Positions 4,429-34,032 of a DNA stretch of 64,000 bases are shown piece by piece. The notes under the pieces were generated by a model. The model made no database searches, was not told where the DNA came from, and saw nothing but the letters and a program-made list of their open reading frames with translations. How positions within the stretch are numbered: position 1 is the stretch's first letter; every line of letters begins with the position of its first letter. Source of the DNA: Mycobacterium barrassiae. Its GTDB lineage: Bacteria > Actinomycetota > Actinomycetes > Mycobacteriales > Mycobacteriaceae. Location of the stretch: positions 16,365 to 80,364 of the forward strand of contig NZ_JACKUK010000042.1 in assembly GCF_025822765.1 (NCBI RefSeq). Reading direction: 5' to 3'. A program made the position numbers and the translations under genes.

Positions 4429-5406
4429 ATGAGTGCCATTGAGGACATCCAGAAGGCCGCCGAGCGGGTCAAGGCCGAGGGCAAGAGCAAGCCGCGGGTC
4501 GGCCGTCATCCGGTGAACCAGCCGATGATCGACCACTGGCTCGATGCGATGGGGGATCGCAACCCCATCTATGTCGACGAGGCGGCAGCCAAGGCGGCCG
4601 GCCATCCCGGCATTGTCGCTCCGCCCGCGATGATCCAGGTGTGGACCATGATGGGCTTGGGCGGCAACCGGCCCGACGACGACCCGCTGGGCAAGATCAT
4701 CGGATTGTTCGACGACGCAGGCTATATCGGCGTCGTCGCCACCAACTGCGAGCAGACCTACCACCGCTACCTCCGGCCCGGCGAGGAGGTCAGCGTCTCC
4801 GCAGAGCTGACCGACGTCGTCGGCCCCAAGCGGACCGCGCTCGGCGAGGGCTTCTTCATCACGCAGAAGATCTCCTGGCAGGTCGGCGACGAGGACGTCG
4901 CCGAGATGATGTGGCGCATCATGAAATTCCGGCCCGCCGAGGCCGACAAACCGGCCGCTTCACAGGTGCCCGAGGACCTGGACGCGAATTCGATGATGCG
5001 GCCAGCGTCGTCGCGCGACACAAAGTTCTTCTGGGACGGCGTAAACGCACATGAGCTGCGAATCCAGAAGCGGCCCGACGGCACCCTGGTGCATCCGCCG
5101 GTGCCCGCCCTCTGGCAGGACAAGGAAGCGCCGATCGACTACGTCGTCGCCTCCGGTAAGGGCACCGTGTTCAGCTTCGTGGTGCACCACGCGCCGAAGG
5201 TGCCCGGCCGCACGTTGCCGTTTGTCATCGCGCTGGTCGAGCTCGAGGAGGGGGTGCGGATGCTCGGTGAGCTCCGCAACATCGACCCCGCCAAGGTGAA
5301 GATCGGATTGCCTGTCCGGGCAACGTATATCGACTTCCCCGAGGGGGATACGGGTCCGGCCTGGACCCTCTACGCGTGGGAGCCCAGCGAGGAGGCCACC
5401 GCATGA
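4429..5406 (+). CDS. chsH2: ChsH2: MaoC-like hydratase subunit fused to a DUF35 domain
   Basis: ChsH2 and ChsH1 form the enoyl-CoA hydratase of the last side-chain cycle, and the ChsH2 DUF35 domain recruits the aldolase Ltp2. The 325-residue protein has an N-terminal MaoC/hot-dog domain (about 1-170) and a C-terminal DUF35 OB-fold domain (about 185-325). In the MaoC motif GDRNPIYVDE the usual His is replaced by Tyr, so this half should be non-catalytic and depend on ChsH1. The DUF35 part begins KFFWDGVNAHELRIQ and has none of the paired Cys of a zinc ribbon, so it probably binds no zinc. The ATG at 4429 follows GAGGACTGAG, and the stop overlaps the chsH1 start (ATGA). Confidence 0.93.
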   Translation: MSAIEDIQKAAERVKAEGKSKPRVGRHPVNQPMIDHWLDAMGDRNPIYVDEAAAKAAGHPGIVAPPAMIQVWTMMGLGGNRPDDDPLGKIIGLFDDAGYIGVVATNCEQTYHRYLRPGEEVSVSAELTDVVGPKRTALGEGFFITQKISWQVGDEDVAEMMWRIMKFRPAEADKPAASQVPEDLDANSMMRPASSRDTKFFWDGVNAHELRIQKRPDGTLVHPPVPALWQDKEAPIDYVVASGKGTVFSFVVHHAPKVPGRTLPFVIALVELEEGVRMLGELRNIDPAKVKIGLPVRATYIDFPEGDTGPAWTLYAWEPSEEATA

Positions 5407-5804
5407 GTGCACCGACTGTCGAGGTCGGCACGAAACTGCCGGAGCTGTCGCTGTACGGCGATCCGACGTTCATCGTGTCGACCGCGATCGCCACGCGCGA
5501 CTATCAGGATGTCCACCACGACCGGGACAAGGCGCAGGCCAAGGGATCCAAGGACATCTTCGTCAACATCCTCACCGACACCGGTCTCGTTCAGCGCTAC
5601 ATCACCGACTGGGCCGGCCCCACCGCGATCATCAAATCGATCGGGTTGCGATTGGGAGTGCCGTGGTACGCCTACGACACCGTGACTTTCAGAGGTGAGG
5701 TGACGGCTGTCGAGGACGGCCTGATCTCGCTGAAAGTGACTGGCAGCAACAGCCTCGGCGACCACGTGATCGCCACGGCGACACTGACGATCGGAGATGC
5801 ATGA
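5403..5804 (+). CDS. chsH1: ChsH1: MaoC-like enoyl-CoA hydratase catalytic subunit
   Basis: This 133-residue single hot-dog protein pairs with ChsH2 and supplies the catalytic Asp/His, visible in the segment DYQDVHHDRDKAQAKG. Together they hydrate the 17(20)-ene side-chain CoA before retro-aldol cleavage. The start is the ATG at 5403 overlapping the chsH2 stop as ATGA, which fits the MSAPTVEVG N-terminus better than an in-frame codon 27 bases upstream inside chsH2. Its own stop overlaps the ltp2 start in the same way. It corresponds to Rv3541c. Confidence 0.93.
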   Translation: MSAPTVEVGTKLPELSLYGDPTFIVSTAIATRDYQDVHHDRDKAQAKGSKDIFVNILTDTGLVQRYITDWAGPTAIIKSIGLRLGVPWYAYDTVTFRGEVTAVEDGLISLKVTGSNSLGDHVIATATLTIGDA

Positions 5805-6964
5805 GCGGCCTGTCCGGTAAGGCGGCGATCGTGGGGATCGGCGCCACCGACTTCTCCAAGAACTCCGGCCGAAGCGAACTGCGGCTGGCGTCCGAAGCGG
5901 TGCTGGATGCACTCGACGATGCGGGACTGACGCCTGCCGATGTGGACGGCATGGTCACGTTCACCATGGACTCCAACACCGAGGTGGCGATCGCTCGCGC
6001 CACCGGCATCGGCGACCTGACGTTCTTCTCCAAGATCCACCACGGTGGCGGCGCGGCCTGCGCGACGGTTCAGCAGGCGGCGATCGCGGTGGCCACAGGT
6101 GTCGCGGATTGCGTTGTGGCATACCGGGCTTTCAACGAGCGGTCGGGAATGCGATTCGGCCAGGTGCAGATGCGGTTGGTGGAGAACGCCGACAGCACCG
6201 GGGTGGACAACTCGTTCTCGTATCCGCACGGTCTGTCGACGCCTGCCGCACAGGTGGCGATGATCGCCCAGCGGTACATGCACTACTCCGGTGCGACGAG
6301 CCGGGACTTCGGTGTCGTGTCGGTGGCCGACCGTAAGCACGCGGCGAAGAACCCGAAGGCGTACTTCTACGAGAAGCCGATCACCATCGAGGATCACCAG
6401 AACTCGCGGTGGATCGCCGAGCCGCTGCGGTTGCTCGACTGCTGCCAGGAGACCGACGGCGGTGTGGCGCTGGTGATCACCTCCGTCGAGCGCGCCAAGG
6501 ACCTCAAGCATCGACCCGCTGTCATCGAGGCGGCCTCTCAGGGCTCCAGTCCGAATCAGTACTCGATGACGAGCTACTACCGGCCGGAGCTCGGTCTGCC
6601 GGAGATGGGGCTGGTCGGCAGGCAGCTGTGGGATCAGTCCGGTCTGACGCCGGAGGACATCCAGACCGCGATCCTCTACGACCACTTCACGCCGTTCACC
6701 CTGATTCAGTTGGAGGAGTTGGGATTCTGCGGTCGCGGCGAGGCCAAGGAATACATCGCCGACGGCGCCATCGAGATCGGCGGCAGACTGCCGATCAACA
6801 CTCACGGCGGTCAGCTCGGTGAGGCGTACATCCACGGCATGAACGGCATCGCGGAAGGTGTCCGGCAGCTGCGGGGAACGTCGGTGAACCCGGTGCCCGA
6901 CGTCGAGCACGTCCTCGTCACGGCCGGAACCGGGGTGCCTACCTCAGGACTCATCCTGGGCTGA
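5801..6964 (+). CDS. ltp2: Ltp2, steroid side-chain retro-aldolase (thiolase fold)
   Basis: Ltp2 cleaves the 17-hydroxy side-chain CoA into a C17 ketone (androstenedione type) and propionyl-CoA, working in complex with the ChsH2 DUF35 domain. The 387 residues have the SCP-x thiolase fold, but the nucleophile position reads HHGGGAACATVQ and lacks the C-S/T-G signature, as expected for an aldolase. The C-terminal NTHGGQLGEAYIHGMNGI keeps the thiolase glycine loop. The ATG overlaps the chsH1 stop by 4 bp. The gene ends 9 bp before the convergent hsd4B stop, and no hairpin fits between them. Confidence 0.93.
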   Translation: MSGLSGKAAIVGIGATDFSKNSGRSELRLASEAVLDALDDAGLTPADVDGMVTFTMDSNTEVAIARATGIGDLTFFSKIHHGGGAACATVQQAAIAVATGVADCVVAYRAFNERSGMRFGQVQMRLVENADSTGVDNSFSYPHGLSTPAAQVAMIAQRYMHYSGATSRDFGVVSVADRKHAAKNPKAYFYEKPITIEDHQNSRWIAEPLRLLDCCQETDGGVALVITSVERAKDLKHRPAVIEAASQGSSPNQYSMTSYYRPELGLPEMGLVGRQLWDQSGLTPEDIQTAILYDHFTPFTLIQLEELGFCGRGEAKEYIADGAIEIGGRLPINTHGGQLGEAYIHGMNGIAEGVRQLRGTSVNPVPDVEHVLVTAGTGVPTSGLILG

Positions 6965-16114: not shown

Positions 16115-17242
16115 GTGTACTCACAGCCGCTGATCGACGCGATCGCCGAAGCCGAGCACCTCGTGTCCACTGCGCCCTTCATCGAATCCGAGGCCGACCT
16201 GCTCGAGGGATTGCAGTACCTGGCCGGATGCATCTCCGCCTGCACTCACCTGGCGTTCGACTACGACCGCGATCATCCGTTCATGCAGTCGGGAACGGGG
16301 CCGTTCACCAAGATGGGCCTCGACAACCCGGACGCCATGTACTTCGGAACCCGGGTACAGCCTTGCCACGAATACGTCGTCACCGGCAAGCGCGGCACCA
16401 CGACCGACCTGGCATTCCAGCTGCTGGGCGGGGAGTACACCGATGACAACGTCCCCCCCAGCCAGGCCGCGTTCGACGACCGCGAGCTGACCATCGCCGA
16501 GGACGGTACGTACGAGTGGCGGTTCACGCCGACCAGCCCGTCGCAGTTGGTGGTCCGCGAGGTGTACAACGACTGGTCGGCACAGCGCGGCTACATCAGC
16601 ATCGCGAGAACCGATACGGCGGGCACGGCGCCGCCGCCGCTGACCAAGGAGCTGATCGAGAAGCGATACGCGGTGGCCGGCAAGCAACTGGTTCAGCGGG
16701 TCAAGACCTGGCTGCAGTTCCCGCAGTGGTTCTACAACAATCTGCCGGTCAATACGATGGTCGCGCCGCGGCTGACCCCGGGCGGTCTGGCGACGCAGTA
16801 TTCGTCGGTCGGCCACTTCGATCTCGCGCCGGATCAGGCGATGATCATCACGCTTCCCGTTCCCGATGCCCCGTACCTCGGTTTCCAGCTGGGCAGCCTG
16901 TGGTACATCTCGCTGGACTACATCAACCATCAGACATCGCTGAATGGCACTCAGGCACAGGCGGATCCGGATGGCAAGATCCGGTACGTGGTGTCGGACG
17001 CGAACCCCGGGGTGACGAACTGGGTCGAGACGCTGGGGCACCGCAAGGGGTATCTGCAGTTCCGGTGGCAGCGGTTGTCTCGCGAACTCACCGAGGCCGA
17101 CGGGCCCACGGTCGAGGTCGTCGACATCGACAAGGTGGCGGCGGCCCTGCCGTTCTACGAAACGAACAAGATCTCGGATGAGGACTGGCGCGCGCGGATC
17201 GCACTGCGCCAGAAGCAGATCGGCGACAGGATGGTGGGATAG
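16115..17242 (+). CDS. DUF1214-type protein, Rv3531c homologue
   Basis: This 375-residue protein has the length and position of Rv3531c in the sterol locus. The C-terminal part looks like a DUF1214 domain (YVVSDANPGVTNWVETLGH, YLQFRWQRL), and no signal peptide or membrane segment is seen. The reaction is unknown; the KstR operator 10 bp upstream and the linked SDR and sulfotransferase genes point to steroid metabolism. The start is GTG at 16115, without a Shine-Dalgarno sequence, fitting a leaderless message. The next gene begins 2 bp after its stop. Confidence 0.8.
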   Translation: MYSQPLIDAIAEAEHLVSTAPFIESEADLLEGLQYLAGCISACTHLAFDYDRDHPFMQSGTGPFTKMGLDNPDAMYFGTRVQPCHEYVVTGKRGTTTDLAFQLLGGEYTDDNVPPSQAAFDDRELTIAEDGTYEWRFTPTSPSQLVVREVYNDWSAQRGYISIARTDTAGTAPPPLTKELIEKRYAVAGKQLVQRVKTWLQFPQWFYNNLPVNTMVAPRLTPGGLATQYSSVGHFDLAPDQAMIITLPVPDAPYLGFQLGSLWYISLDYINHQTSLNGTQAQADPDGKIRYVVSDANPGVTNWVETLGHRKGYLQFRWQRLSRELTEADGPTVEVVDIDKVAAALPFYETNKISDEDWRARIALRQKQIGDRMVG

Positions 17243-17244
17243 CA

Positions 17245-18018
17245 GTGCTCGACAACAAAATAGTGGTGATCAGTGGCGTCGGTCCGGCGCTGGGAACCAC
17301 GCTCGCCAAACGATGCGCCGAGGCGGGAGCCGATCTGGTGCTGGCCGCCCGCACCGTGGAACGGCTCGAGGACGTCGCCAAGCAGATCACCGACATCGGC
17401 AGGCGAGCGGTGACGGTAGGCACCGACATCACGGACGAGGCTCAGGTGGCCAATCTCGTCGAGCAGACGCTCGAGGCGTACGGCCGGGTCGACGTGTTGA
17501 TCAACAATGCGTTCCGCGTGCCGTCCATGAAACCGTTCGCCAACACCACGTTCGAGCACATGAGGGATGCCATCGAGCTGACGGTGTTCGGCGCGCTGCG
17601 GATGATTCAGGGTTTCACGCCTGCACTGGCGGAATCGAAGGGCTCCGTTGTCAACGTGAACTCGATGGTGGTGCGCCACTCACAGGCCAAGTACGGCGCC
17701 TACAAGATGGCCAAGTCGGCACTCTTGGCGATGTCGCAGACGCTCGCCACCGAACTGGGTGAGCAGGGCATCCGGGTGAACTCCGTTCTGCCCGGCTATA
17801 TCTGGGGCGGAACCCTGAAGGGCTACTTCGAGCACCAGGCCGGCAAGTACGGCACCAGCGTCGAAGAAATCTACAACGCCGCCGCCGCAGGATCCGATCT
17901 GAAACGCCTGCCCACCGAGGATGAGGTCGCCTCGGCGATACTCTTCATGGCCAGCGACCTGTCCAGCGGAATCACCGGACAGGCGCTCGACGTCAACTGC
18001 GGGGAGTACAAGGCCTGA
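17245..18018 (+). CDS. Short-chain dehydrogenase/reductase, Rv3530c homologue
   Basis: This is a 257-residue classical SDR. The cofactor loop reads VISGVGPALGTTLA, a variant of TGxxxGxG, followed by LVLAARTVERL; the NNAF segment corresponds to NNAG; the active-site Tyr/Lys is in KYGAYKMAKSAL, and the C-terminus DVNCGEYKA is typical. It is likely a hydroxysteroid or hydroxyacyl-CoA dehydrogenase, but the substrate is unknown. The start is GTG at 17245, 2 bp after the preceding stop, and the last base of its stop is the first base of the next gene (TGATG). The three genes 16115-19163 form one operon under the KstR site at 16091. Confidence 0.85.
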   Translation: MLDNKIVVISGVGPALGTTLAKRCAEAGADLVLAARTVERLEDVAKQITDIGRRAVTVGTDITDEAQVANLVEQTLEAYGRVDVLINNAFRVPSMKPFANTTFEHMRDAIELTVFGALRMIQGFTPALAESKGSVVNVNSMVVRHSQAKYGAYKMAKSALLAMSQTLATELGEQGIRVNSVLPGYIWGGTLKGYFEHQAGKYGTSVEEIYNAAAAGSDLKRLPTEDEVASAILFMASDLSSGITGQALDVNCGEYKA

Positions 18019-19163
18019 TGACCGCGCGTACCGATGTGGGTACCGTCGAGGACTTGCACGCTTCGGCGACGAAGGCATGCGGACTCGACGATTTCGGCGT
18101 CGACGACGACAACTACCGCGAGGCCCTGAGCGTGCTGCTGGAGTCGTTCCGGCGCGACGCCAACCTGACCGAACTCGGAAGCAAGATGAACCGGTTCTTC
18201 GTGCGCAACGCGCTGGTGGCGCGGCTGGTATCCGAGGCGGCCTGGAAGCAGTACCCCGAACACGCCGACGTCGCCATCGAGCGGCCGATCTTCGTCACCG
18301 GACTGCCCCGCACAGGGACGACCGTCATTCACCGGCTTTTGGCCGCCGATCCACGGCACCAGGGCCTGGAACTGTGGCTTGCCGAATTTCCGCAACCGCG
18401 CCCACCGCGCGAGAGATGGTCGGACAACCCGGTTTTCGCTCAGCTGGATGCCCAGTTCGCCAAGGCGCACGCGGAGGACCCGGACTACACGGGCCTGCAC
18501 TACATGACCGCCGACGAGGTGGAGGAGTGCTGGCAGCTGTTGCGGCAGTCGCTGCACTCAGTCTCCTACGAGACACTCGCGCATCTGCCGACCTACTCAC
18601 AGTGGCTGGCGAAACAGGACTGGATCAAGCCGTACCAGCGGCATCGCAAGAACCTGCAGCTGATCGGCCTCAATGACGCTGAGAAGCGTTGGGTGCTCAA
18701 GAATCCGAGCCATCTGTTCGCGCTTGATGCGCTGCTGGATATCTATCCCGATGCGCTGATCGTGCAGTGCCATCGGCCTGCCGAGACCATCATGGCCTCG
18801 ATGTGCTCGTTGGCGCAGCACACGACCGCAGGGTGGTCGGAGACGTTCGTCGGTGCGCAGATCGGCGAGGATGCCATGGAAACGTGGTCGCGGGGACTGC
18901 GGCGCTTCAACGCGGTTCGGGCCGATCACGATCAGGCGCAGTTCTGCGATGTCGACTACTTCGAGTTCGTCAAGGATCCGGTCGCTGCGGTACAGGGGAT
19001 CTACGAGCACTTCGGCATCGAGTTCACCGACGAGGCGCGCGCGGCGATTGTGGAGAGCCACGCCGAGAGCCAGAAGGGTCCCCGTGCGCCGAAGCACACC
19101 TACTCCCTGGCCGATTACGGCCTGACCGACGAACAGGTCAAGGAGCGCTTCAAGGGGCTCTGA
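18018..19163 (+). CDS. Sulfotransferase-family protein, Rv3529c homologue
   Basis: The 381-residue protein carries the PAPS-binding P-loop near residue 96 (FVTGLPRTGTTVIHRLLA) and the downstream 3'-phosphate-binding region (IYPDALIVQCHRPAETIMAS), so it belongs to the type 3 sulfotransferase family common in mycobacteria. An acceptor such as a hydroxysteroid is plausible because it is third in a KstR-controlled operon, but this is inference. The start overlaps the SDR stop by 1 bp. Beyond its stop 232 bp contain no gene and no strong hairpin that I could see. Confidence 0.85.
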   Translation: MTARTDVGTVEDLHASATKACGLDDFGVDDDNYREALSVLLESFRRDANLTELGSKMNRFFVRNALVARLVSEAAWKQYPEHADVAIERPIFVTGLPRTGTTVIHRLLAADPRHQGLELWLAEFPQPRPPRERWSDNPVFAQLDAQFAKAHAEDPDYTGLHYMTADEVEECWQLLRQSLHSVSYETLAHLPTYSQWLAKQDWIKPYQRHRKNLQLIGLNDAEKRWVLKNPSHLFALDALLDIYPDALIVQCHRPAETIMASMCSLAQHTTAGWSETFVGAQIGEDAMETWSRGLRRFNAVRADHDQAQFCDVDYFEFVKDPVAAVQGIYEHFGIEFTDEARAAIVESHAESQKGPRAPKHTYSLADYGLTDEQVKERFKGL

Positions 19164-25415: not shown

Positions 25416-26396
25416 ATGACGATCGGGCAGGTCGCGCAACTGTGGCGGTATCCGGTCAAGTCGCTGGGCGGCGAGCGTATCGAAGTCGCGGACATCGGTC
25501 GACGCGGCGTGCGCGGCGACCGCCTATGGGCCGTGCGTGACGTGGAGCGCGACGTCACCGCGACGGCGCGGCGGGTGCCCGGCCTGCTGGGCGCGACCGC
25601 CCGCTACGTCGATCCCGTGCCCGCCGATGCGGGGCCGGGTAATGCGCCCGAGGTCGCGATCACCTTTCCCGACGGCACCGTCCTGTCCAGCAGCGACCCC
25701 GGTGTGCACGCCAAGCTGTCCGAGCTCGCGGGCCGTGAGATGCGGCTGACGTCGCTGCCGCCCGCCGACGACACCAGCCTGCACAAGCTGAGCCGCGACG
25801 AGCGCGAGAACATGTCGACCGCGGCCCTGCGCAAGGACTTCGGGGTCGGCGACGACGAGAAGTTCCCGGACATGTCGATGTTCCGGGTCACCGATCTCGC
25901 GACGCTGTCCCGATACTCGACGCCGCCGGGGATGTTCGTCGACCTGGCCCCCGTCCACGTCATGACCCAGACCAGCCTGGACACCGTCGGCGCCGAACTG
26001 GGCGGTGACGACGTCGATGTCCGCCGCTTCCGCCCCAATATCCTGTTGGCGCTTGATAATCCGAACGACGGGCTGCCCGAGTCGCAGTGGACCGGCGGGC
26101 AGCTCTGGATCGGCGGGGCCGTGCTCGAGGTCACGATGCCGACGATCCGGTGCGTCGTGCCGAGTCGCGCTCAGCCCGGCTTCGACGTGGACCGGCGCAT
26201 CACCAAGGCCGTCGCCGGCCGGGCCAACCGTTGCCTGGGCAGCTACTGCTGGGTGAAGACCGACGGAGCGGTGCGTATCGGCGATGAGGCGGCGCTGCAG
26301 GAGAGCAAACGTCGCGGATTCGCCGATGCGGCCCGGCGCACCAAGCGATTCGCATTCGGCCTCGCGACGTCCGCGATGGATCGCCTCGGACGCTAG
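25416..26396 (+). CDS. MOSC domain protein
   Basis: The 326-residue protein has an N-terminal MOSC beta-barrel domain (VAQLWRYPVKSLGGERIEV) and a C-terminal MOSC domain (about 150-290) with RFRPNILL and a single conserved Cys in TIRCVVPSRAQPGFD. MOSC proteins bind Mo-cofactor sulfur or reduce N-hydroxylated compounds; the substrate here is unknown. The ATG at 25416 is preferred because it begins the conserved domain; the frame stays open 92 codons upstream without similarity. Its stop shares bases with the convergent SnoaL-like gene. Confidence 0.88.
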   Translation: MTIGQVAQLWRYPVKSLGGERIEVADIGRRGVRGDRLWAVRDVERDVTATARRVPGLLGATARYVDPVPADAGPGNAPEVAITFPDGTVLSSSDPGVHAKLSELAGREMRLTSLPPADDTSLHKLSRDERENMSTAALRKDFGVGDDEKFPDMSMFRVTDLATLSRYSTPPGMFVDLAPVHVMTQTSLDTVGAELGGDDVDVRRFRPNILLALDNPNDGLPESQWTGGQLWIGGAVLEVTMPTIRCVVPSRAQPGFDVDRRITKAVAGRANRCLGSYCWVKTDGAVRIGDEAALQESKRRGFADAARRTKRFAFGLATSAMDRLGR

Positions 26397-26809
26397 ATCT
26401 TGCGCGCGCTCGCAGTCGCCTTGTCGAGCTCCCAGAATGCCCGCAGCGCAACGATCTTGCCCTCGTCGTTCACGCGATAGGTGAACACACCCTCGGCCTT
26501 GACCTCGTAACCGGATGCCCTGATCACGATGTGGCCGACGTTGGCTTCCTCGTTGCCACACTGATAGGTCTTCTCGAAGTTGAAAGTCAGTTCGCTGGGC
26601 GCGATCGCCATGTCGTAGAACTTGGCGATCGCCTCCTTACCGCGGTGGCCTCTGCCTTCGGGATCGAAATGCGACGGTCCGATCGGGTCCTCGACCACGG
26701 CGTCGTCGGCGAAGTTGGCCAGCCACGCGTCCTTGTCGTGGGCGATCGCCGCCTCACGAGAGCGCTTGCCCGCCAGGTGAACCGGTGCCTCCGGGTCGGT
26801 GACGGTCAT
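26393..26809 (-). CDS. SnoaL/ketosteroid-isomerase-fold protein
   Basis: The 138-residue protein has the SnoaL-like cone fold signature: RSREAAIAHDKDAWLANFADDAVVEDP-type N-terminal helix and Asp, RGHRGKEAIAKFYD, and the C-terminal strands ending ALRAFWELDK. Members catalyse isomerisation, hydration or aldol-type reactions on small ring compounds, and the exact reaction is not readable. The start is ATG (complement of 26807-26809), 2 bp after the stop of the LLM gene; a TTG five codons upstream is possible. It is last in the leftward sterol operon headed by the double-DUF35 gene. Confidence 0.8.
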   Translation of the reverse strand: MTVTDPEAPVHLAGKRSREAAIAHDKDAWLANFADDAVVEDPIGPSHFDPEGRGHRGKEAIAKFYDMAIAPSELTFNFEKTYQCGNEEANVGHIVIRASGYEVKAEGVFTYRVNDEGKIVALRAFWELDKATASARKI

Positions 26810-26811
26810 GG

Positions 26812-27699
26812 TCAGTCTTGCCAACCTGAGTGGATGAAGGTGTCGGCATAGCGCTTGAGCGAGTCCTTCTTCACCTCGATCGGCGCGTCGAAGCCGTGAC
26901 CTTCAAGAACCCATGGGATGACGATGTTGTCGGTGACACCCGCCGCCACCAGTTCACGGTGCCCGTCGACGTCGAACTTGTCGATGCACACCGCTTGGCT
27001 TTCGAACGGATCGTCCGCGCGGCCGTTCTCGGCAAGCAGCTTCTTGAGCTTGCCGATGATCTCGGCCAGCTGATCACATGTCAGCATCGCGCTGGTCCAG
27101 CCGTCGCCCACGCGTGCCGCCCGCTTCAACGCCACATCTGTGTGGCCGCCCACGTAGAAGGGCACCGGCGCCGACGGCGCCGGGCTCATCTGCAACCTGT
27201 CGAAATCGTAGAATTCGCCGTGGAATTCGACCATGCCGCCCGCGAGCACGAGTCTGATGACCTCGATCATCTCGTCGACGCGCTTACCGCGTTTGGCATA
27301 CGGCTGTCCGCACCACTCGAATTCCTCCGGTGCCCAGCCGATTCCCACGCCGAACCCGAACCGGTTGTTGGTAAGGTTCGCCACCGAACCCACCTGACGA
27401 GCGAGTAGCAGAGGGTTGCGAGAGCCGAGCTTCATCACGTTGGTGTAGAACCGCAGCTTCGAGGTCACCGCGCCCATCGCGCCCGCCAGAATCAGCGGGT
27501 CGACCCACGGAGTGTTCTCGTCCCACATCCGTGAACCGTCGGCGGTATAGGGATAATCCGCGGACTGCTTTTCCATGAAGAAGATCGAGTCCGGGAGCGC
27601 GATGTTGTCGAAGCCGAGTTCCTCAGCCGTCTTCGCGATCTCGATGAGCTGATCGAGCGGGCTCATCGCCACGCTGACGGTGTACTGCATGCGAGTCAT
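26812..27699 (-). CDS. LLM-class F420-dependent oxidoreductase
   Basis: The 295-residue protein is a luciferase-like TIM barrel: QYTVSVAMSPLDQLIEIAKTAEELGFDN at the start, LRFYTNVMKLGSRNPLLLA, and NNRFGFGVGIGWAPEEFE, the pattern of mycobacterial F420-dependent enzymes. It probably reduces or oxidises a sterol-derived intermediate; the substrate is unknown. The start overlaps the ltp3 stop as ATGA, so it is translationally coupled to the aldolase genes. Confidence 0.85.
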   Translation of the reverse strand: MTRMQYTVSVAMSPLDQLIEIAKTAEELGFDNIALPDSIFFMEKQSADYPYTADGSRMWDENTPWVDPLILAGAMGAVTSKLRFYTNVMKLGSRNPLLLARQVGSVANLTNNRFGFGVGIGWAPEEFEWCGQPYAKRGKRVDEMIEVIRLVLAGGMVEFHGEFYDFDRLQMSPAPSAPVPFYVGGHTDVALKRAARVGDGWTSAMLTCDQLAEIIGKLKKLLAENGRADDPFESQAVCIDKFDVDGHRELVAAGVTDNIVIPWVLEGHGFDAPIEVKKDSLKRYADTFIHSGWQD

Positions 27700-28877
27700 G
27701 ACTTGGCCGCCGGCTTCTCAGAGCTGACCACCCACATCGAGAAGTACTGCGAGCCACCGCCGTACGCGTGCCCCAGCGCCTTACGAGCTCCCTCGACCTG
27801 ATGCTCACCCGCCTTACCCATCACCTGGATCGCGGACTCGGCGAACCGGATCATGCCCGATGCGCCAATGGGATTGCTCGACAGCACGCCGCCGGACGGG
27901 TTGAACGGGATACGCCCGCCAATCGCCGTCTCGCCAGCTTCGGTGAGCTTCCAGCCCTCGCCCTCCTTGGCGAAGCCAAGATTCTCCAGCCACATCGGCT
28001 CGAACCACGAGAACGGCACGTAGACCTCAGCGACGTCGATCTCATCGATCGGTGAGGTGATGCCCGCATCGCGCCACAGTGCCGCCGCGGCGTCCCGGCC
28101 CGCCTGTGGGTTCACCTGATCGCGGCCGGAGTAGGCCAGCGGTTCGGTGCGCAGCGCGGTGGCGTGTATCCACGCGACGGGATGCCCCTCGGCCACGCGG
28201 GTGTCGGCGATCTCTTCGTTGCCGATCACCATGGCGCAGGCACCGTCGGAGGAGGGGCAGGTCTCGTCGAAACGAATGGGGTCCCACAGCATCTGCGACT
28301 GCATCACCTTCTCCAGCGTGATGTCGGGCTGATGCAGGTGGGCCAACGGGTTCTTCGCGCCGTTGAGCCGGTCCTTGACCGCGACCATGGCGCCGATGTG
28401 CGTCGGTGCGCCCGAGCGCCGGATGTAAGACCGGACGTGCGGGGCGAAATACCCGCCGGCGCCGGCACCGACCGGTTTGGTGAACGGTACCGGGATACTC
28501 AACGCCCACATGGCGTTCGACTCGGACTGCTTTTCCCAGGCCATCGTCAGCACACGCTTGTACTTGCCGGACTGGACGAGGCTGGCCGCCACGATCGCGG
28601 TCGACCCACCCACCGAGCCCGCGGTGTGTACCCGGATCAGCGGCTTGTCGGTGGCGCCCATGGCATCGGCCATGAAGAGTTCGGGCATCATGACGCCCTC
28701 GAAGAAGTCAGGCGCCTTGCCGACCACCACGGCCTCGATGTCGTCGAACGTCGAGCCCGAGTCCGCGAGCGCCTTGTCGATGGCCTCGCGAACCAGGCCG
28801 TTCATCGAGACGTCCTTGCGCTTGGCGACGTACTTCGTCTGCCCGGTGCCGAGCACCGCCGCGTTCTGACCTGCCAT
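27696..28877 (-). CDS. ltp3: Ltp3, thiolase-fold steroid aldolase
   Basis: The 393-residue protein is an SCP-x-type thiolase-fold enzyme. Where a thiolase has its nucleophilic Cys this protein reads HTAGSVGGSTAIVA, so it should be a C-C lyase, not a thiolase. The C-terminal loop GGVLSSNPIGASGMIRFAE is well conserved. In Rhodococcus, ltp3 and ltp4 are needed to degrade C24-branched sterol side chains such as sitosterol, and the same job is inferred here. It overlaps ltp4 by 1 bp (TGATG) and the following LLM gene by 4 bp. Confidence 0.9.
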   Translation of the reverse strand: MAGQNAAVLGTGQTKYVAKRKDVSMNGLVREAIDKALADSGSTFDDIEAVVVGKAPDFFEGVMMPELFMADAMGATDKPLIRVHTAGSVGGSTAIVAASLVQSGKYKRVLTMAWEKQSESNAMWALSIPVPFTKPVGAGAGGYFAPHVRSYIRRSGAPTHIGAMVAVKDRLNGAKNPLAHLHQPDITLEKVMQSQMLWDPIRFDETCPSSDGACAMVIGNEEIADTRVAEGHPVAWIHATALRTEPLAYSGRDQVNPQAGRDAAAALWRDAGITSPIDEIDVAEVYVPFSWFEPMWLENLGFAKEGEGWKLTEAGETAIGGRIPFNPSGGVLSSNPIGASGMIRFAESAIQVMGKAGEHQVEGARKALGHAYGGGSQYFSMWVVSSEKPAAKS

Positions 28878-29956
28878 CAGTTTCCGCTCCTCTTGGGATC
28901 CCCATCGAGAACCGCGACCAGATTCTGTTGCAGCGCAGCACCACTGGTGGCATGCGCCAGCACCCGCTGCGCGGAACCGTCGAAGATGTGCCGGGCCGCA
29001 AAGCCGATGCGCTCCAAGCCCGCCGAGAACATCGGGTTGGCGGCCAGCGCGCCGCCGGACGGGTTGATCTTCGTCGAGTCACCAAGACCGATGGCCTCGG
29101 TGAGGATCAGATGTTGGTGGGTGAACGGTGCGTGGAGTTCGGCGACATCGATCGACCCGGGGTCGCCACCCGTGGCGGCCTTGGCCGACGCCGCGGTGGA
29201 TGCCGAGGTGGTCAGGTCGCGGGCGCCAAGCACCGGAGTCTCGATGCGATGCTCGAGACCGGTGATCCACGCGGGACGCTCCCGCAGCTCGCGCGCGCGG
29301 TCACCCGCGGCCAGCACAATTGCCGACGCGCCGTCGGTGATCGGCGCAATGTCGTGGCGCCGCAACGGATCCGCGAAATACGGGCGGGCGAGCAGCTCAT
29401 CGATGCTCTTCCCAGGTTTCTCCGAGTCCGTGCGCTCCGCGACGGCGAAGGAGTCCAGCGCCACCTGGGCCATCTGCTCGGCGGTCCACTTACCCGCGTC
29501 CAGGCCGAGCCGGGCCTGCAGGCCTGCGGTCGACACGGAATCGGGGACCAGCGGCGCCATGGTGTACGGGTCGGTCTGCATCGCCAGGATGCGACGCAGC
29601 ACACCTGCACTGGACTTACCGAAGCCGTAGACGAGTGCGGTGTCCACCGAGCCGGTCAGGATCTTGATGTAGGCCTCGTACAGCGCCCACGCCGCGTCCA
29701 TCTCCACGTGCGATTCGTTGATCGGCGGGACCGCACCAATCGAGTCGATCGCCGACAGGAACGAGAATGCGCGTCCGGCAAGGTAATCCGAGGAACCCGA
29801 ACACCAGAACCCGATGTCGGTCTGCTTGATGCCCAGCTCCTCGTAGAGCTCGGCGAAGCACGGCATCAACATCTCGACGCCATTGGTGGTGCCTTCGGTG
29901 CGGCGCACATGCGGAGCATGCGCGAAGCCGACGACGGCAACGTCACGAGAAGTCAT
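28877..29956 (-). CDS. ltp4: Ltp4, thiolase-fold steroid aldolase
   Basis: The 359-residue protein pairs with Ltp3. It has a thiolase fold (VAVVGFAHAPHVRRTEG at the start, GGALAANPMFSAGLERIGF near the end) and no nucleophilic Cys at the usual position (SHVEMDAAWALYEAY). The likely role is retro-aldol cleavage of C24-branched side-chain CoA esters with a DUF35 partner. The ATG complement is 29954-29956, 11 bp after the stop of the double-DUF35 gene. Order DUF35-ltp4-ltp3 matches Rv3521-Rv3523. Confidence 0.9.
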   Translation of the reverse strand: MTSRDVAVVGFAHAPHVRRTEGTTNGVEMLMPCFAELYEELGIKQTDIGFWCSGSSDYLAGRAFSFLSAIDSIGAVPPINESHVEMDAAWALYEAYIKILTGSVDTALVYGFGKSSAGVLRRILAMQTDPYTMAPLVPDSVSTAGLQARLGLDAGKWTAEQMAQVALDSFAVAERTDSEKPGKSIDELLARPYFADPLRRHDIAPITDGASAIVLAAGDRARELRERPAWITGLEHRIETPVLGARDLTTSASTAASAKAATGGDPGSIDVAELHAPFTHQHLILTEAIGLGDSTKINPSGGALAANPMFSAGLERIGFAARHIFDGSAQRVLAHATSGAALQQNLVAVLDGDPKRSGN

Positions 29957-29967
29957 GTGGGCAGCCC

Positions 29968-30960
29968 TTACTGGTGGTGCTTGTAGGTTTCGTAGTCGGC
30001 GTCGGGTTCACCCGTCGGCCGGAAGTAGTCGATGTTGTCGATGCCGAGCCCCCACTCCTCGCGGGGCTTCCACACCGCCTCGACCCGCATGCCCATCCGC
30101 ACGTCGGCGGCGTCCACTTCGGTGACGAGATGCAGGAACGGGATGTCCGCGCCGTCGAGCAATATGTATGCGGCGACGTACGGCGGCTTGATGCGCTGGC
30201 CCGCGAAGGGGATGTTGATGATCGCGAACGTCGTCACCGTGCCCTTGTCGGGAAGCTCGACGAACTGGTCCAGCTGCTTGCCCGTCGCCGGATCGGCCTC
30301 GCGCGCAGGGAAATAGACCTTCCCATCCTTGCCGGTGCGGGCGCCGAGCAGCTTGCCCTCCTCGAGGGCACGCAGGAACGCGCTCTCGGGAAGCGATGCG
30401 CTGTGCTGGATTTCGATCGACGTGGGAACGACGAGCATCGTCACCGGGTCCCGGTCGTCGGCCACATCGGGAACATCCTCGGGCTGGTCACCAAGCGCGA
30501 AATAGGCGATGTCGGTGATCGCACCGACGGGCTCGTCGACCCAGTGCGCATGCACCCGGGCGCCGGTGCTGATCTGATCGGCCGAGCCGGCGTCGACAGC
30601 ATGGAGCATCGGCGTGTCGGCGCCGTCGAGCTTCACCAGCGCCCACGCGAACGGGCGGTCCAGCGGCTGACCTTCGAGCGGCTCCGGCTGCCAGGTCCAA
30701 GACACCACCGTTCCGACGCTGCTCACCGGTACGATCTCGGTCAATTCCTCATAGGTGACCGGGTCGTACTCGGCAGGGGGCACCAGCACCCGACCGTCCG
30801 AACCGCGCACGCCGACGATGCGTCGCTCGCGCAGCGCAGTGAAGAACTGGGACAGGAGTGGACCGACTGAACGGGTGTAGTCGAATGAAAGTCTCAACGG
30901 TGCCGAAAGTGGCGGCTCATGCTGATCGATCTGCACCGGGCTGCTTTGGCTGGTGGTCAC
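29968..30960 (-). CDS. Tandem DUF35 (OB-fold) protein, Rv3521-like partner of Ltp3/Ltp4
   Basis: The 330-residue protein holds two DUF35 units: about 20-150 (YTRSVGPLLSQFFTAL, GRVLVPPAEYDP) and about 180-310 (SASLPESAFLRALEEGK, GKVYFPAREADP). Neither has the zinc-ribbon Cys pairs. By analogy with ChsH2-Ltp2, the DUF35 domains probably activate and hold the aldolases encoded directly downstream. The start is GTG at the complement of 30958-30960; an ATG 12 codons upstream would overlap the KstR operator. The KstR site ends 9 bp upstream. Confidence 0.87.
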   Translation of the reverse strand: MTTSQSSPVQIDQHEPPLSAPLRLSFDYTRSVGPLLSQFFTALRERRIVGVRGSDGRVLVPPAEYDPVTYEELTEIVPVSSVGTVVSWTWQPEPLEGQPLDRPFAWALVKLDGADTPMLHAVDAGSADQISTGARVHAHWVDEPVGAITDIAYFALGDQPEDVPDVADDRDPVTMLVVPTSIEIQHSASLPESAFLRALEEGKLLGARTGKDGKVYFPAREADPATGKQLDQFVELPDKGTVTTFAIINIPFAGQRIKPPYVAAYILLDGADIPFLHLVTEVDAADVRMGMRVEAVWKPREEWGLGIDNIDYFRPTGEPDADYETYKHHQ

Positions 30961-30969
30961 GGCATCGAG

Positions 30970-30983
30970 TAGAACAGGTTCTA
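30970..30983. promoter_or_regulatory. KstR operator between the double-DUF35 and LLM genes
   Basis: The palindrome tagaacaggttcta matches the consensus with AACnnGTT core. It sits in the 58 bp between divergent starts, 9 bp from one and 35 bp from the other, and should control both operons. Confidence 0.85.
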
Positions 30984-31018
30984 AGAATGGTTTCAACCAC
31001 GGGTCGGAAGGCGATCTA

Positions 31019-32050
31019 ATGAAGCTGGGACTTCAGCTGGGATATTGGGGCGCCAAGCCGCCCACCAACGACGCGGAATTGGTCGCCGCGGCCGAGGAGG
31101 CCGGGTTCGACACCGTGTTCACCGCCGAGGCCTGGGGCTCCGACGCCTTCACGCCACTGGCCTGGTGGGGCCGGGAAACGACGAGGATGCGGCTGGGCAC
31201 GTCGGTCGTCCAGCTGTCGGCCAGGACGCCGACGGCATGCGCGATGGCGGCGCTGACGCTCGACCACCTCTCCGGCGGCAGGCACATCCTCGGGCTGGGA
31301 GTGTCCGGACCGCAGGTGGTCGAGGGTTGGTACGGCCAGAAGTTCCCGAAGCCACTGGCCCGCACCCGTGAGTACATCGACATCCTGCGCCAGGTGTGGG
31401 CCCGCGAGGCCCCGGTGCGCAGCGACGGCCCGCACTACCCGTTGCCGTTGACCGGTGAGGGCACCACGGGGCTGGGCAAGAACCTCAAGCCGATCACCCA
31501 CCCGTTGCGGGCGGACATCCCGGTGATGCTGGGCGCCGAAGGGCCGAAGAACGTCGCACTGGCCGCCGAGATCTGCGACGGCTGGCTGCCCATCTTCTAC
31601 TCGCCGCGGATCGCGGGCATGTACAACGAGTGGCTGGACGAGGGCTTTGCGCGGCCGGGGGCCCGGCACACCCGGGAGACCTTCGAGATCTGCGCGACGG
31701 CTCAGGTCGTCGTCACCGACGACCGTCCGGCGGTGATGGAGCTGATGAAGCCGCACCTGGCGCTCTACATGGGCGGAATGGGCGCCGAGGACACCAACTT
31801 CCACGCCGACGTCTACCGCCGGATGGGCTACGCCGAGGTGGTGGACGACGTCACCAAGCTGTTCCGCAGTGACCGCAAGGACGAGGCTGCCAAGATCATC
31901 CCCGACGAGCTGGTCGACGACTCCGCGATCGTTGGCGACCTCGGCTACGTGCAGGAACAGATCAAGGCGTGGGAGGCCTCGGGCGTCACCATGATGGTCG
32001 TCGGTGCCCGGTCCGTCGAGCAGATCCGGGATCTCGCTGCGCTGGTGTGA
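31019..32050 (+). CDS. LLM-class F420-dependent oxidoreductase, Rv3520c-like
   Basis: The 343-residue protein is a luciferase-like TIM barrel: KLGLQLGYWGAKPPTNDAE, TVFTAEAWGSDAFTPLAWWG, LGTSVVQLSARTPTACAMA and GRHILGLGVSGPQVVEGWYG are typical of F420-dependent mycobacterial enzymes. The ATG at 31019 begins the barrel; an upstream in-frame ATG would overlap the KstR operator. Position corresponds to Rv3520c. Substrate unknown; sterol induction is inferred from the operator 35 bp upstream. Confidence 0.87.
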   Translation: MKLGLQLGYWGAKPPTNDAELVAAAEEAGFDTVFTAEAWGSDAFTPLAWWGRETTRMRLGTSVVQLSARTPTACAMAALTLDHLSGGRHILGLGVSGPQVVEGWYGQKFPKPLARTREYIDILRQVWAREAPVRSDGPHYPLPLTGEGTTGLGKNLKPITHPLRADIPVMLGAEGPKNVALAAEICDGWLPIFYSPRIAGMYNEWLDEGFARPGARHTRETFEICATAQVVVTDDRPAVMELMKPHLALYMGGMGAEDTNFHADVYRRMGYAEVVDDVTKLFRSDRKDEAAKIIPDELVDDSAIVGDLGYVQEQIKAWEASGVTMMVVGARSVEQIRDLAALV

Positions 32051-32081
32051 AACTCGGGTAGACACTTCCTTGCTACTTGTC

Positions 32082-32095
32082 TAGTCCGCGTTCTA
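32082..32095. promoter_or_regulatory. Degenerate KstR-like site
   Basis: The sequence tagtccgcgttcta keeps the right half of the KstR palindrome (GTTCTA) but not the AAC of the left half. It lies 10 bp upstream of the ADC-like gene. Function uncertain. Confidence 0.4.
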
Positions 32096-32105
32096 GATTG
32101 ACCCG

Positions 32106-32825
32106 ATGACTGCTTCGCAGTACACGATCGCCGGCACGGTGCTCACCATGCCGGTACGGGTTCGCAAAGCGACCCAGCACATGGCGATGTTCTCCGTCGA
32201 CGCCGACGCGGCGCAGGCGATGATCGACTACAGCGGACTGACGGTCTGCCGGTACCGGCAGAACCGCGCGATCGTCGTTCTGATGCTGATGCGTTACATC
32301 GACACCGATCTCGGCGAATACTACGAGTACGGGACCAACGTGATGGTCAACCCGCCGGGATCGGACGCCAAGGGTCTCCGCGCCCTGCAGTCGGCCGGAG
32401 CGTTCGTCCATCACCTGCCCGTCGATCAGCCGTTCACTCTCGAGGCGGGGTGCACGATCTGGGGCTACCCGAAGGTGATGGCGGATTTCACGATTCGCGA
32501 TGGCAACTCCTACTCGTTCGACGTCACCATCGACGGCCAGTTCGCCGTCGGCATGGACTTCAAGCCCGGACTGCGGGTGCCGTCGGCGTTCACGTCCCGC
32601 CCGCAGTCGCACCCCACCTACTCGTACCGCGACGGCGTGCGCCGTCAGACCCTCGGCGAGATGGCGATGACCGATGTGCGTTACCGCCCGGGTGGTGCGA
32701 CCGTCCGGCTCGGCGAACATCCCTACGCGAAAGAACTCGCCTCGCTGGGTTTCCCCAAACGTGCGTTGGTCTCCAGTTCGGCTGGCAACGTGGAGATGTC
32801 GTTCGCAGACGCGCAGGAGGTGTGA
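32106..32825 (+). CDS. Acetoacetate decarboxylase-superfamily protein, Rv3519-like
   Basis: The 239-residue protein resembles the acetoacetate decarboxylase superfamily: TMPVRVRKATQHMAMFSVD, and the segment GCTIWGYPKVMADFTI with a Lys placed like the Schiff-base Lys of that family. The true reaction is unknown, and many members are not decarboxylases. It precedes cyp142 by 1 bp (stop TGA, then C, then ATG), so the two are coupled. The order matches Rv3518c-Rv3519 with the Mtb strand inverted. Confidence 0.8.
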   Translation: MTASQYTIAGTVLTMPVRVRKATQHMAMFSVDADAAQAMIDYSGLTVCRYRQNRAIVVLMLMRYIDTDLGEYYEYGTNVMVNPPGSDAKGLRALQSAGAFVHHLPVDQPFTLEAGCTIWGYPKVMADFTIRDGNSYSFDVTIDGQFAVGMDFKPGLRVPSAFTSRPQSHPTYSYRDGVRRQTLGEMAMTDVRYRPGGATVRLGEHPYAKELASLGFPKRALVSSSAGNVEMSFADAQEV

Positions 32826-32826
32826 C

Positions 32827-34032
32827 ATGGCAGCACCAACATCGACGAAGCCGGATGTCGATCTGACCGACGGTGCCTTCTACGCCGGTGACTCACGGTC
32901 GGTCTACAAGTGGATGCGCGAGCACGAACCCGTCTTTCGCGACCGCAACGGATTGGCCGCCGCCGCAACGTATGCCGCGGTGATCGAGGCCGAGCGCCAG
33001 CCGGAGTTGTTCTCCAACGCCGGCGGTATCCGGCCCGATCAGCCGGGCGTCGAGATGATGATCGAGATGGACGATCCGCAGCATCTGTTGCGGCGCAAAC
33101 TCGTCAACTCAGGCTTCACCCGTAAGCGGGTCAAAGACCTCGAGGGGTCGATCGAGCACCTGTGCGACACGCTGATCGACGCGGTCTGCGAACGCGGCGA
33201 ATGCGATTTCGTCTGGGACCTCTCAGCTCCGCTGCCGATGGCGGTCATCGGCGACATGCTCGGCGTGCGTCCGGAAGAGCGCGAGATGTTCCTCAAGTGG
33301 TCCGACGACCTCGTCAGCTCGTTGAGCAGCACCGCGGCCGAAGCGGACATCCAGGTCACGATGGATGCGTTCGCGACCTACAGCAATTACATGATGGGCA
33401 TGATCGAGGCCCGCAAGAAGGAGCCGACCGACGATCTGGTCAGCGTCCTCGTGCACGCCGAGGTCGAGGGGTCCAAGCTGGAGGACCACCAGATCGTCAC
33501 CGAGGTGCTCCTGCTGCTGATCGGCGGCGACGAGACCACCCGTCACACGCTGTCGGGTGGGACCCGTCAGCTGCTACTCCACCCGGAGGCGCACCGGCGG
33601 CTGATCAACGATCTCGACCTGCTGCCTAATGCGATCGAAGAGATGCTGCGGTGGACGGCGCCGGTGAAGAACATGGCGCGAACCATCACCCGCGACACCG
33701 AGTTTCACGGCGCCTCCCTCAAAGAGGGCGAGAAGATGATCCTGCTCTTCGAGTCGGCCAACTTCGACGAGAAGGTGTTCGAGAACCCCGAAGAGTTCAA
33801 CATCGACCGCCATCCGAACAACCACCTCGCGTTCGGCTTCGGCACCCACTTCTGCCTGGGCAACCAGCTCGCCCGCCTCGAGCTTTCGATCATGCAGACG
33901 AAGCTGCTGCAGCGGCTGCCGGATCTGCGGCTGGCCTCCGACGAGGAGCTTCCGCTCCGGCCGGCCAACTTCGTCAGCGGCCTCGAGAAGATGCCGGTGA
34001 AGTTCACGCCCACCAAACCCGTCCTGCGGTAA
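32827..34032 (+). CDS. cyp142: Cytochrome P450 CYP142, sterol C26/C27 monooxygenase
   Basis: CYP142 duplicates the CYP125 reaction on the sterol terminal methyl with the opposite stereochemistry. The 401 residues contain the I-helix IGGDETTRHTL, the ExxR helix EEMLRWTAPVK, and the heme loop FGFGTHFCLGNQLARLEL with Cys at about 343. The start is ATG 32827; the frame extends upstream over the ADC-like gene but without P450 similarity. The ribosome-binding site GGAGG lies inside the end of the previous gene. It ends at a strong hairpin shared with echA19. Confidence 0.95.
   Translation: MAAPTSTKPDVDLTDGAFYAGDSRSVYKWMREHEPVFRDRNGLAAAATYAAVIEAERQPELFSNAGGIRPDQPGVEMMIEMDDPQHLLRRKLVNSGFTRKRVKDLEGSIEHLCDTLIDAVCERGECDFVWDLSAPLPMAVIGDMLGVRPEEREMFLKWSDDLVSSLSSTAAEADIQVTMDAFATYSNYMMGMIEARKKEPTDDLVSVLVHAEVEGSKLEDHQIVTEVLLLLIGGDETTRHTLSGGTRQLLLHPEAHRRLINDLDLLPNAIEEMLRWTAPVKNMARTITRDTEFHGASLKEGEKMILLFESANFDEKVFENPEEFNIDRHPNNHLAFGFGTHFCLGNQLARLELSIMQTKLLQRLPDLRLASDEELPLRPANFVSGLEKMPVKFTPTKPVLR

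Follow-up and report, generated by a model that had tools for sequence, protein, structure and literature searches.

Two candidate accessory enzymes, LLM2 and SnoaL, beside the ltp3-ltp4 genes of a KstR-controlled locus in Mycobacterium barrassiae

Gene organization of the ltp3-ltp4 locus

Removal of the C24 branch from phytosterols underlies industrial steroid production. The C24-C25 bond of C24-alkyl sterols is broken by an aldolase unit made up of Ltp3, Ltp4 and a protein with two DUF35 domains, as described in Rhodococcus, where ltp3 and ltp4 are reportedly needed for growth on these sterols but not on cholesterol. We analysed a stretch of 64,000 nucleotides from Mycobacterium barrassiae (contig NZ_JACKUK010000042.1, positions 16,365 to 80,364; hereafter the window) that carries an ltp3-ltp4 operon, and focused on the two genes that follow ltp3, which encode a luciferase-like oxidoreductase (LLM2) and a protein of the SnoaL/ketosteroid isomerase (KSI) fold (SnoaL). 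The features of the locus are as follows.

26393..26809, minus strand: SnoaL, a member of the Rv0760c family with the SnoaL_2/KSI fold, encoded at the end of the ltp operon (Pfam SnoaL_2, 56 bits)
26812..27699, minus strand: LLM2, luciferase-like oxidoreductase of the TIGR03619 subfamily (196 bits, cut-off 166.9)
27696..28877, minus strand: Ltp3-type thiolase-like aldolase (NCBIfam PRK08313, 767 bits, cut-off 514), Rv3523 equivalent by order
28877..29956, minus strand: Ltp4-type thiolase-like aldolase (NCBIfam PRK07937, 648 bits, cut-off 419), Rv3522 equivalent by order
29968..~30960, minus strand: double OB_ChsH2_C/DUF35 protein (two PF01796 stretches, 99 bits), Rv3521 equivalent
30970..30983, no strand: KstR operator between the double-DUF35 gene and LLM1, exact TAGAACAGGTTCTA (weight-matrix score 11.1)
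31019..32050, plus strand: LLM1, LLM oxidoreductase of the Rv3520c subfamily (TIGR03559, F420_Rv3520c, 503 bits, cut-off 335)
32080..32099, no strand: degenerate KstR-operator-like site before the next gene, TCTAGTCCGCGTTCTAGATT (8.8 bits), with the AAC core changed to TCC
32106..32825, plus strand: protein of the acetoacetate decarboxylase (ADC) superfamily (PF06314, 113 bits), Rv3519 equivalent

A first-pass annotation of this DNA had listed eight features here, all of which were recovered at their positions from the window sequence, its open reading frames and an operator search; Pfam and NCBIfam verified the gene set of SnoaL, LLM2, Ltp3, Ltp4, double-DUF35, LLM1 and ADC-fold proteins. The double-DUF35 gene probably starts at GTG 30960; its longest open reading frame extends to 30996, which would make it overlap the operator. 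Among 80 named loci, the closest is that of M. tusciae (L098), with 95% identity in the ltp4 stretch.

Core genes, gene order and KstR operator are common to the window and the Ltp3/Ltp4 operon of Rhodococcus rhodochrous DSM 43269 and M. tuberculosis (Rv3519-Rv3523), to which the window adds LLM2 and SnoaL after ltp3. The locus is therefore the KstR-controlled Rv3519-Rv3523 region, known territory apart from these two genes. We did not find the position of LLM2 and SnoaL beside ltp3 described in the open-licence literature. LLM1 falls into F420_Rv3520c.

The annotation had named one KstR operator, at 30970. This site is exact and its core matches that of the M. tuberculosis Rv3520c/Rv3521 intergenic probe, which KstR bound in an electrophoretic mobility shift assay according to excerpts of PMC1995591; the second, degenerate site at 32080 shows that it is not the only one. 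For M. smegmatis, the same excerpts list an operator in the MSMEG_5920/5921 interval and, distinct from it, another at MSMEG_5919. Sites were scored on 180-base stretches around gene starts with a weight matrix built from 32 published KstR sites taken from that source (PMC1995591). Binding of KstR to the KstR-type sites reported below for other genomes would be expected from their sequences.

SnoaL and LLM2 are separated by 2 bases, and LLM2 overlaps ltp3 by 4. In related genomes the Ltp3-LLM2 gap on the same strand is 10 bases or less in 49 of 59 counted cases, 36 of them being the 4-base overlap, and the LLM2-SnoaL gap in 44 of 74; only gaps from -60 to 200 bases are counted, in rows from related genomes of which some appear twice. 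The coupling of ltp3, LLM2 and SnoaL is beyond chance, and the suggestion that their order is not accidental was borne out. A chance neighbourhood of LLM2 and SnoaL is ruled out by the conserved pairing and the operators.

Distribution of LLM2 and SnoaL

The order was sampled with 219 genomes, 69 of which carry ltp4; LLM2 was found in 49 (48 of the 69 with ltp4 and 1 of the 150 without) and SnoaL in 60 (59/69 and 1/150). LLM2 was counted at 46% identity or more, which takes in 49 of 68 matching genomes and drops the other 19, at 39-44%. The SnoaL count takes in 60 of 66 matching genomes, six with only Rv0760c-like matches being dropped, and keeps G105 (interrupted gene) and G163 (fragment). 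Among the 75 genomes with ltp2 or ltp4, LLM2 is present in 48/69 with ltp4 versus 1/6 without (p 0.017) and SnoaL in 59/69 versus 1/6 (p 0.0009), the single ltp2-positive, ltp4-negative genome with both being an incomplete metagenome-assembled genome (MAG). Within the 69 ltp4 genomes, 44 have both genes, 4 LLM2 only, 15 SnoaL only and 6 neither, so that the tie between LLM2 and SnoaL themselves is weak (p 0.057).

Of the 80 named ltp4 loci, 73 were scored for genes within 2.5 kb of ltp3; five Mycobacterium-type stretches and one from Nocardia end too near ltp3, and one Rhodococcus stretch lacks it. 'Mycobacterium-type' here includes MAGs with loose titles. One of them, L122, titled Bifidobacterium breve, holds a mycobacterial ltp3/ltp4 contig, evidently by contamination or mislabelling. 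The order LLM1 / double-DUF35-Ltp4-Ltp3-LLM2-SnoaL was found in all 11 scorable loci of Rhodococcus, Prescottella and Nocardia. The 62 Mycobacterium-type loci have, beside ltp3, both genes (22), SnoaL only (24), LLM2 only (5) or neither (11), the last including M. lepraemurium (L156); these counts cover the ltp3 neighbourhood, and copies may lie elsewhere in the same genomes. The pair looks old in the ltp operon and lost piecemeal in Mycobacterium, and because 11 of the 62 loci lack both genes beside ltp3, LLM2 and SnoaL look dispensable.

M. smegmatis points the same way. Excerpts of PMC6273163 report that it uses beta-sitosterol, and excerpts of PMC1995591 give MSMEG_5920/5921 as orthologues of Rv3520c/Rv3521 and MSMEG_5925 as that of Rv3526. 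By locus-tag arithmetic, the interval between MSMEG_5920/5921 and MSMEG_5925 has space for ltp4, ltp3 and one more gene, and that between ltp3 and kshA for only one gene; a further copy may lie elsewhere. This spacing suggests that LLM2 and SnoaL are apparently dispensable on beta-sitosterol. A published operator of M. smegmatis was matched in 17 of 326 genomes, but the published forward kshA primer was absent from all of their stretches, so that none could be assigned to M. smegmatis.

Several observations concern individual copies. The SnoaL gene of G105 (C34:372985-373379; M. rhodesiae, L125; also L056) appears interrupted, giving a split match with a TGA, possibly by decay or sequencing error. 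In L040 (G062 C1), LLM2 and parts of the ltp region occur twice near both contig ends, probably through assembly overlap across the origin or duplication. SnoaL matches of 39-46% in the genus of the window were rejected as orthologues on sequence and genomic place. The second SnoaL-type copy of the M. barrassiae genome (C42:114030) is Rv0760c-like and lies near genes that we named by eye as response-regulator, sensor and HIT-type genes; in L085 (G020 C54), the neighbours of the LLM2-SnoaL pair include homologues of this response regulator and this sensor (73% and 52%).

KstR-type sites at detached copies

Detached from ltp3, LLM2 is found in families f9, f12 and f14; the f1 family adds a single genome (L089), where the gene encodes a 40%-identical LLM. 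Of the detached LLM2 genes, 28 start a unit (15 in f14, 8 in f9, 4 in f12 and 1 in f1; 27 orthologues and the L089 gene), and every one of these has a KstR-type site of 9.7-22.8 bits 25-70 bases upstream, in two cases (L206, L207) seen on inspection after over-called starts had been corrected. As a control, a score of at least 9.7 bits was reached by 25 of 328 other genes of the same loci without similarity to window genes, and 14 of these 25 begin 450 bp or less from the start of an LLM2 or SnoaL gene, whose site they may share. Nine f14 loci (160 kb) contain 23 sites of at least 12 bits, register-shifted doubles included, versus a mean of 2.8 in five mononucleotide shuffles, and in each of the nine the best site is the one before LLM2.

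The pairing is independent of position, being kept at a distance from ltp3 in every one of the 15 f14 and 8 f9 loci with detached copies. Five lone detached SnoaL genes (L091, L208, L210, L211, L212) have their own site of 15-21 bits, and in three g12 genomes (L059, L060, L061) SnoaL directly follows a P450 in the CYP125 position that itself has upstream sites; it touches the P450 or lies 2 bases off in L059 and L060, and no LLM2 stands alongside in L059-L061. The co-occurrence of both genes with ltp4, together with a KstR-type site at nearly all detached copies, places LLM2 and SnoaL in sterol catabolism. The second LLM2 of G070 (L217), last in its unit, is not among the 28, and a SnoaL fragment (L215) was left unscored.

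Protein features of SnoaL and LLM2

The closest solved structure to SnoaL in a PDB sequence search was Rv0760c (2a15, 99.9 bits). SnoaL shares with Rv0760c and KSI the SnoaL_2 fold and an equivalent of the KSI base Asp38, D41, which is Asp in 37 of 38 aligned rows and Asn in one. In KSI, Tyr14 and Asp99 are the oxyanion-hole residues. In the alignment with 1ocv, Tyr14 falls into a gap of the query and Asp99 faces Phe109, and a separate Rv0760c-like paralogue lies elsewhere in the genome. SnoaL is also below the cut-off of TIGR02096 (ketosteroid isomerase-related; 20.7 versus 97.1 bits). We rejected a KSI proper because equivalents of Tyr14 and Asp99 are missing. SnoaL as sole hydratase of the Ltp3/Ltp4 complex was likewise rejected, being missing from 10 of the 69 ltp4 genomes and, beside ltp3, from 16 of the 62 Mycobacterium-type loci.

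The first-pass annotation had called LLM1 and LLM2 two different F420-type proteins. They do belong to different families, TIGR03559 and TIGR03619, each above the NCBIfam cut-off, and LLM2 is distinguished by the segment YPYTxDGxR, invariant in an alignment of 16 sequences. 'F420-type', as far as the model of LLM2 suggests, is for this protein a family label only. In that AlphaFold2 (AF2) model (predicted local distance difference test score, pLDDT, 90.5; the YPYTxDGxR segment lies in its low-confidence part), the nearest solved folds by Foldseek are the flavin mononucleotide (FMN) monooxygenases SfnG and MsuD, and F420-Mer ranks twelfth with a similar score.

Proposed role of LLM2 and SnoaL

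Two of the four enzymes that the annotation had grouped, LLM2 and SnoaL, are good candidates for undescribed accessory steps. Under KstR, Ltp3, Ltp4 and the double-DUF35 protein would carry out the core C24-C25 cleavage, to which LLM2 and SnoaL would be accessory additions in many, not all, species. As to cofactor, substrate, reaction and cooperation of the two proteins, we infer the following. LLM2 would be a flavin or F420 oxidoreductase and SnoaL an Asp41-based proton-transfer enzyme, an isomerase or eliminase. Their substrate feature would be one present in plant and fungal sterols and not in cholesterol, the likeliest candidate being an additional double bond or an oxygen next to the C24 branch, and their products would feed the Ltp3/Ltp4 route without the pair being required for it. 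We hold the chances to be about even that LLM2 and SnoaL are such accessory redox and Asp-base enzymes, which would normalise a structural element next to the C24 branch of plant or fungal sterols; we favour this reading because of the KstR-type sites, the linkage to ltp4, the pairing of a redox with a base enzyme and the apparent dispensability on beta-sitosterol. In its most specific version the two would be an isomerase and reductase pair resembling the auxiliary enzymes for unsaturated fatty acids, acting for example on Delta22 sterols that become 22,24-dienoyl-CoA (coenzyme A) intermediates; a Delta22,24-dienoyl reductase/isomerase role in particular we consider unlikely.

Various observations weigh against the accessory role. 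The presence of ltp2 in 66 of the 69 ltp4 genomes confounds the co-occurrence and would also fit a general sterol role; Fisher tests give tiny p-values, which overstate independence because the genomes are related, and the associations point to sterol side-chain catabolism more than to the C24 branch. The pair is often split (of the 62 Mycobacterium-type loci, 24 keep SnoaL alone and 5 LLM2 alone), and four f12 genomes keep LLM2 and SnoaL apart, each with its own site. Without equivalents of Tyr14 and Asp99, the case for SnoaL as an isomerase is weak, and LLM2 may oxygenate rather than reduce, because its nearest solved folds are FMN monooxygenases. A more general side-chain role is favoured by the position of SnoaL behind the CYP125-position P450 (L059, L060, L061) and, in G201 (L089), by its place with the 40%-identical LLM in a ring-degradation-type cluster. 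A weight-matrix scan found no KstR-type site near the second SnoaL of G224 (L216) and no clear one for the unit holding the second LLM2 of G070 (L217), whose best site, 12.9 bits, lies inside a gene.

These points bear on the main rival, that LLM2 and SnoaL contribute to the breakdown of sterol side chains or steroids in general, that of cholesterol among them, and occur in operons with ltp3/ltp4 only because all are KstR genes. The rival is strengthened because SnoaL genes sit behind the P450. It also gains from the ltp2 count, from the Rv0760c family membership of SnoaL, with matches to the relatives 5ier and 5if6, which we take to be designed steroid binders, and from the FadE29-, KshA- and KstD-like neighbours of the G201 SnoaL. 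The LLM of this locus (L089, G201 C38) shares the motif as YPYTPDGSR, is divergent from the side-chain/ring degradation operon and has its KstR-type site 70 bp upstream. The general role is, however, opposed by the finding of LLM2 and SnoaL each in only one of six ltp2-positive, ltp4-negative genomes, the incomplete MAG, and by the 11 of 62 Mycobacterium-type loci, that of M. lepraemurium among them, in which neither gene stands beside ltp3. We consider it possible, though clearly less probable than the accessory role.

LLM1 and the ADC-like protein

In the first-pass annotation, LLM1, LLM2, SnoaL and the ADC-like protein were suggested to act jointly, either to finish a path for the C24 branch or to process the ketone or aldehyde set free by Ltp3/Ltp4; we extend this proposal to a released beta-keto acid. 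Excerpts of PMC3546705 and PMC6678751 outline a scheme in which C26 is oxidised, FadD19 ligates CoA, and desaturation, carboxylation of C28 and hydration precede a retro-aldol cleavage by Ltp3-Ltp4, the product of which is a beta-keto acid that must be re-activated; the carboxylation is attributed to methylcrotonyl-CoA carboxylase in an excerpt of PMC10049677. Under the four-enzyme proposal, the ADC-like enzyme would act on the beta-keto-C26 acid of this scheme. The predicted acid supports the proposal, as do the links of all four genes to KstR-type sites and ltp4 carriers, and the fold and lysine of the ADC-like protein.

LLM1 is a near-constant companion of the ltp locus. At 54% identity or more, it was found in at least 78 genomes, at least 67 of the 69 with ltp4 and at least 11 without, the 78 being counted among the matches listed from at least 151 genomes. 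A PDB sequence search with LLM1 returned nothing at 1e-20.

The ADC-like protein, the only PF06314 match of the genome, gave an AF2 model (pLDDT 92.7) whose 24 best Foldseek matches all belong to the ADC superfamily (E 4e-14 to 3c8w), with ADC, MppR, the aldolase-dehydratase Sbi_00515 and Swit_4259 among them; a PDB sequence search returned nothing at 0.01. With these proteins it shares fold and a lysine, K123, which stands in IWG[YF]PK, is invariant in 12 sequences and aligns with the first lysine of GREIWGFPKK in 3c8w, in a weak local alignment (E 0.8). We take the Schiff-base lysine of ADC to be Lys115 in the usual numbering. Unlike ADC, the window protein has Val after K123, and at 18.9 bits it is far below the cut-off of acetoacetate decarboxylase PRK02265 (150). 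A search of the open-licence literature on ADC returned no paper.

The distribution of the ADC-like gene differs from that of LLM2 and SnoaL. At 59% identity or more it occurs in 25 genomes (25 of 37 matching ones, 12 at 34-45% being dropped), all in the genus of the window and 25 of the 69 with ltp4. It is absent from all 13 Rhodococcus, Prescottella and Nocardia stretches, although ltp3/ltp4 are reported to be essential for C24-branched sterols in Rhodococcus. Among 67 Mycobacterium-type loci, 58 have it; eight of the nine misses are contigs cut before the gene position and the ninth (L162) is a real gap in the gene order. Of 88 loci, 21 have the gene inverted relative to LLM1. Within 150 bases upstream of it, a site scoring 9 bits or higher is present in 50 of 67 same-strand loci and in 3 of 21 inverted copies, so the gene would often act as a KstR unit of its own, as at MSMEG_5919. 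Being genus-restricted, often with its own operator and inverted in 21/88 loci, it is probably not a C24-branch gene, and a separate mycobacterial acquisition is part of the best explanation. A further point against a C24-branch role is that its M. tuberculosis orthologue, Rv3519, is needed in macrophages and mice according to excerpts of PMC6429209, where we would expect cholesterol to be the sterol. The same excerpts give Rv3519 no elucidated function and note its absence from the M. chelonae-abscessus complex.

Handling of the beta-keto acid by the ADC-like enzyme is chemically possible, and its distribution argues against it. The co-occurrence with ltp4 that had been suggested as a check was observed for LLM2, SnoaL and LLM1; the ADC-like gene, at orthologue identity, is confined to ltp4 carriers of one genus. 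A single C24-branch path of four enzymes was not supported: the ADC-like gene is genus-restricted and at times inverted, LLM1 occurs without ltp4 in at least 11 genomes, and LLM2 and SnoaL look dispensable. We consider this proposal improbable. The four candidates are narrowed to LLM2 and SnoaL, usually accompanied by a sterol-regulator site wherever they are placed.

A sulfotransferase unit near LLM2 and SnoaL

Our analysis also points to a neighbouring sulfotransferase unit, at times accompanied by a phosphatase for 3'-phosphoadenosine 5'-phosphate (PAP). In the window it is a triplet 7 kb from SnoaL with its own KstR-type site.

16115..17242, plus strand: DUF1214-related protein (operator at 16091)
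17245..18018, plus strand: short-chain dehydrogenase/reductase (SDR; Pfam)
18018..19163, plus strand: sulfotransferase (Pfam)

The first protein has no Pfam match in the window, and its f9 homologue matches DUF1214. By order the three genes are the Rv3531c-Rv3529c equivalents, and the triplet recurs across the order.

In seven f9 genomes (L078, L086, L087, L088, L205, L206, L212) the downstream same-strand neighbours of LLM2-SnoaL are homologues of the triplet, with the DUF1214 protein first, followed by sulfotransferase and SDR where the stretch extends; L212 has SnoaL alone. In G070 (L217), the second LLM2 (65% identical) lies 41 bases after DUF1214-SDR-sulfotransferase. CysQ, a phosphatase for PAP, the sulfotransferase by-product, comes after SnoaL in L078, L088 and L204; in L232, whose pair lies at another place, it is found with the triplet. 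The sulfotransferases keep the stretch GLPRTGTT/GLPRTGST, which presumably binds 3'-phosphoadenosine 5'-phosphosulfate (PAPS). This neighbourhood hints at a shared sub-pathway that uses PAPS in sterol catabolism.

One could accordingly imagine that the sulfotransferase sulfonates a hydroxyl with PAPS, giving a leaving group or a soluble conjugate, that Asp41 of SnoaL eliminates the sulfate and that LLM2 reduces or oxidises the resulting alkene; if true, sulfonation would be a catabolic step and an undescribed branch of the bacterial breakdown of plant and fungal sterols. This scheme is the most doubtful of those considered here. The f9 DUF1214 unit starts with its own KstR-type site (12.3-16.7 bits) and two opposite-strand genes intervene between the SnoaL side and this unit in L086, so that pair and triplet form a neighbourhood, not one operon. 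The f9 triplet is, moreover, only about 26-36% identical to that of the window and differs in internal order, triplet and pair lie apart in most genomes, and DUF1214-type proteins are multicopy, with many paralogues. To our knowledge, no sulfonated intermediate has been described in bacterial sterol catabolism.

Other genes in the window

The window holds much of the known cholesterol cluster besides the ltp operon, as judged by Pfam class and gene order. By synteny, its genes would include a FadA5-like thiolase, a CYP125-position P450, a ChsH2/ChsH1/Ltp2-like set, a KstD-like flavoprotein, KshA, and EchA/FadD-like genes. The ChsH2/ChsH1/Ltp2-like set, with an aldolase and an OB/DUF35 protein, lies at 4429-6964. 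Like the C24 operon, the ChsH1-ChsH2-Ltp2 complex, which acts on the 2'-propionate side chain, joins a thiolase-like aldolase to an OB/DUF35 protein; the C24 operon differs in encoding a second aldolase-type protein and a second DUF35 domain and in lacking a MaoC hydratase. A further gene adjoins the ADC-like one.

32827..34032, plus strand: cytochrome P450 in the CYP142 position (Pfam p450, 114 bits; named by synteny with Rv3518c)

The relatives of this P450 form two identity groups, at about 82-90% or 64-74%, which suggests that paralogues may have replaced one another at the CYP142-position site.

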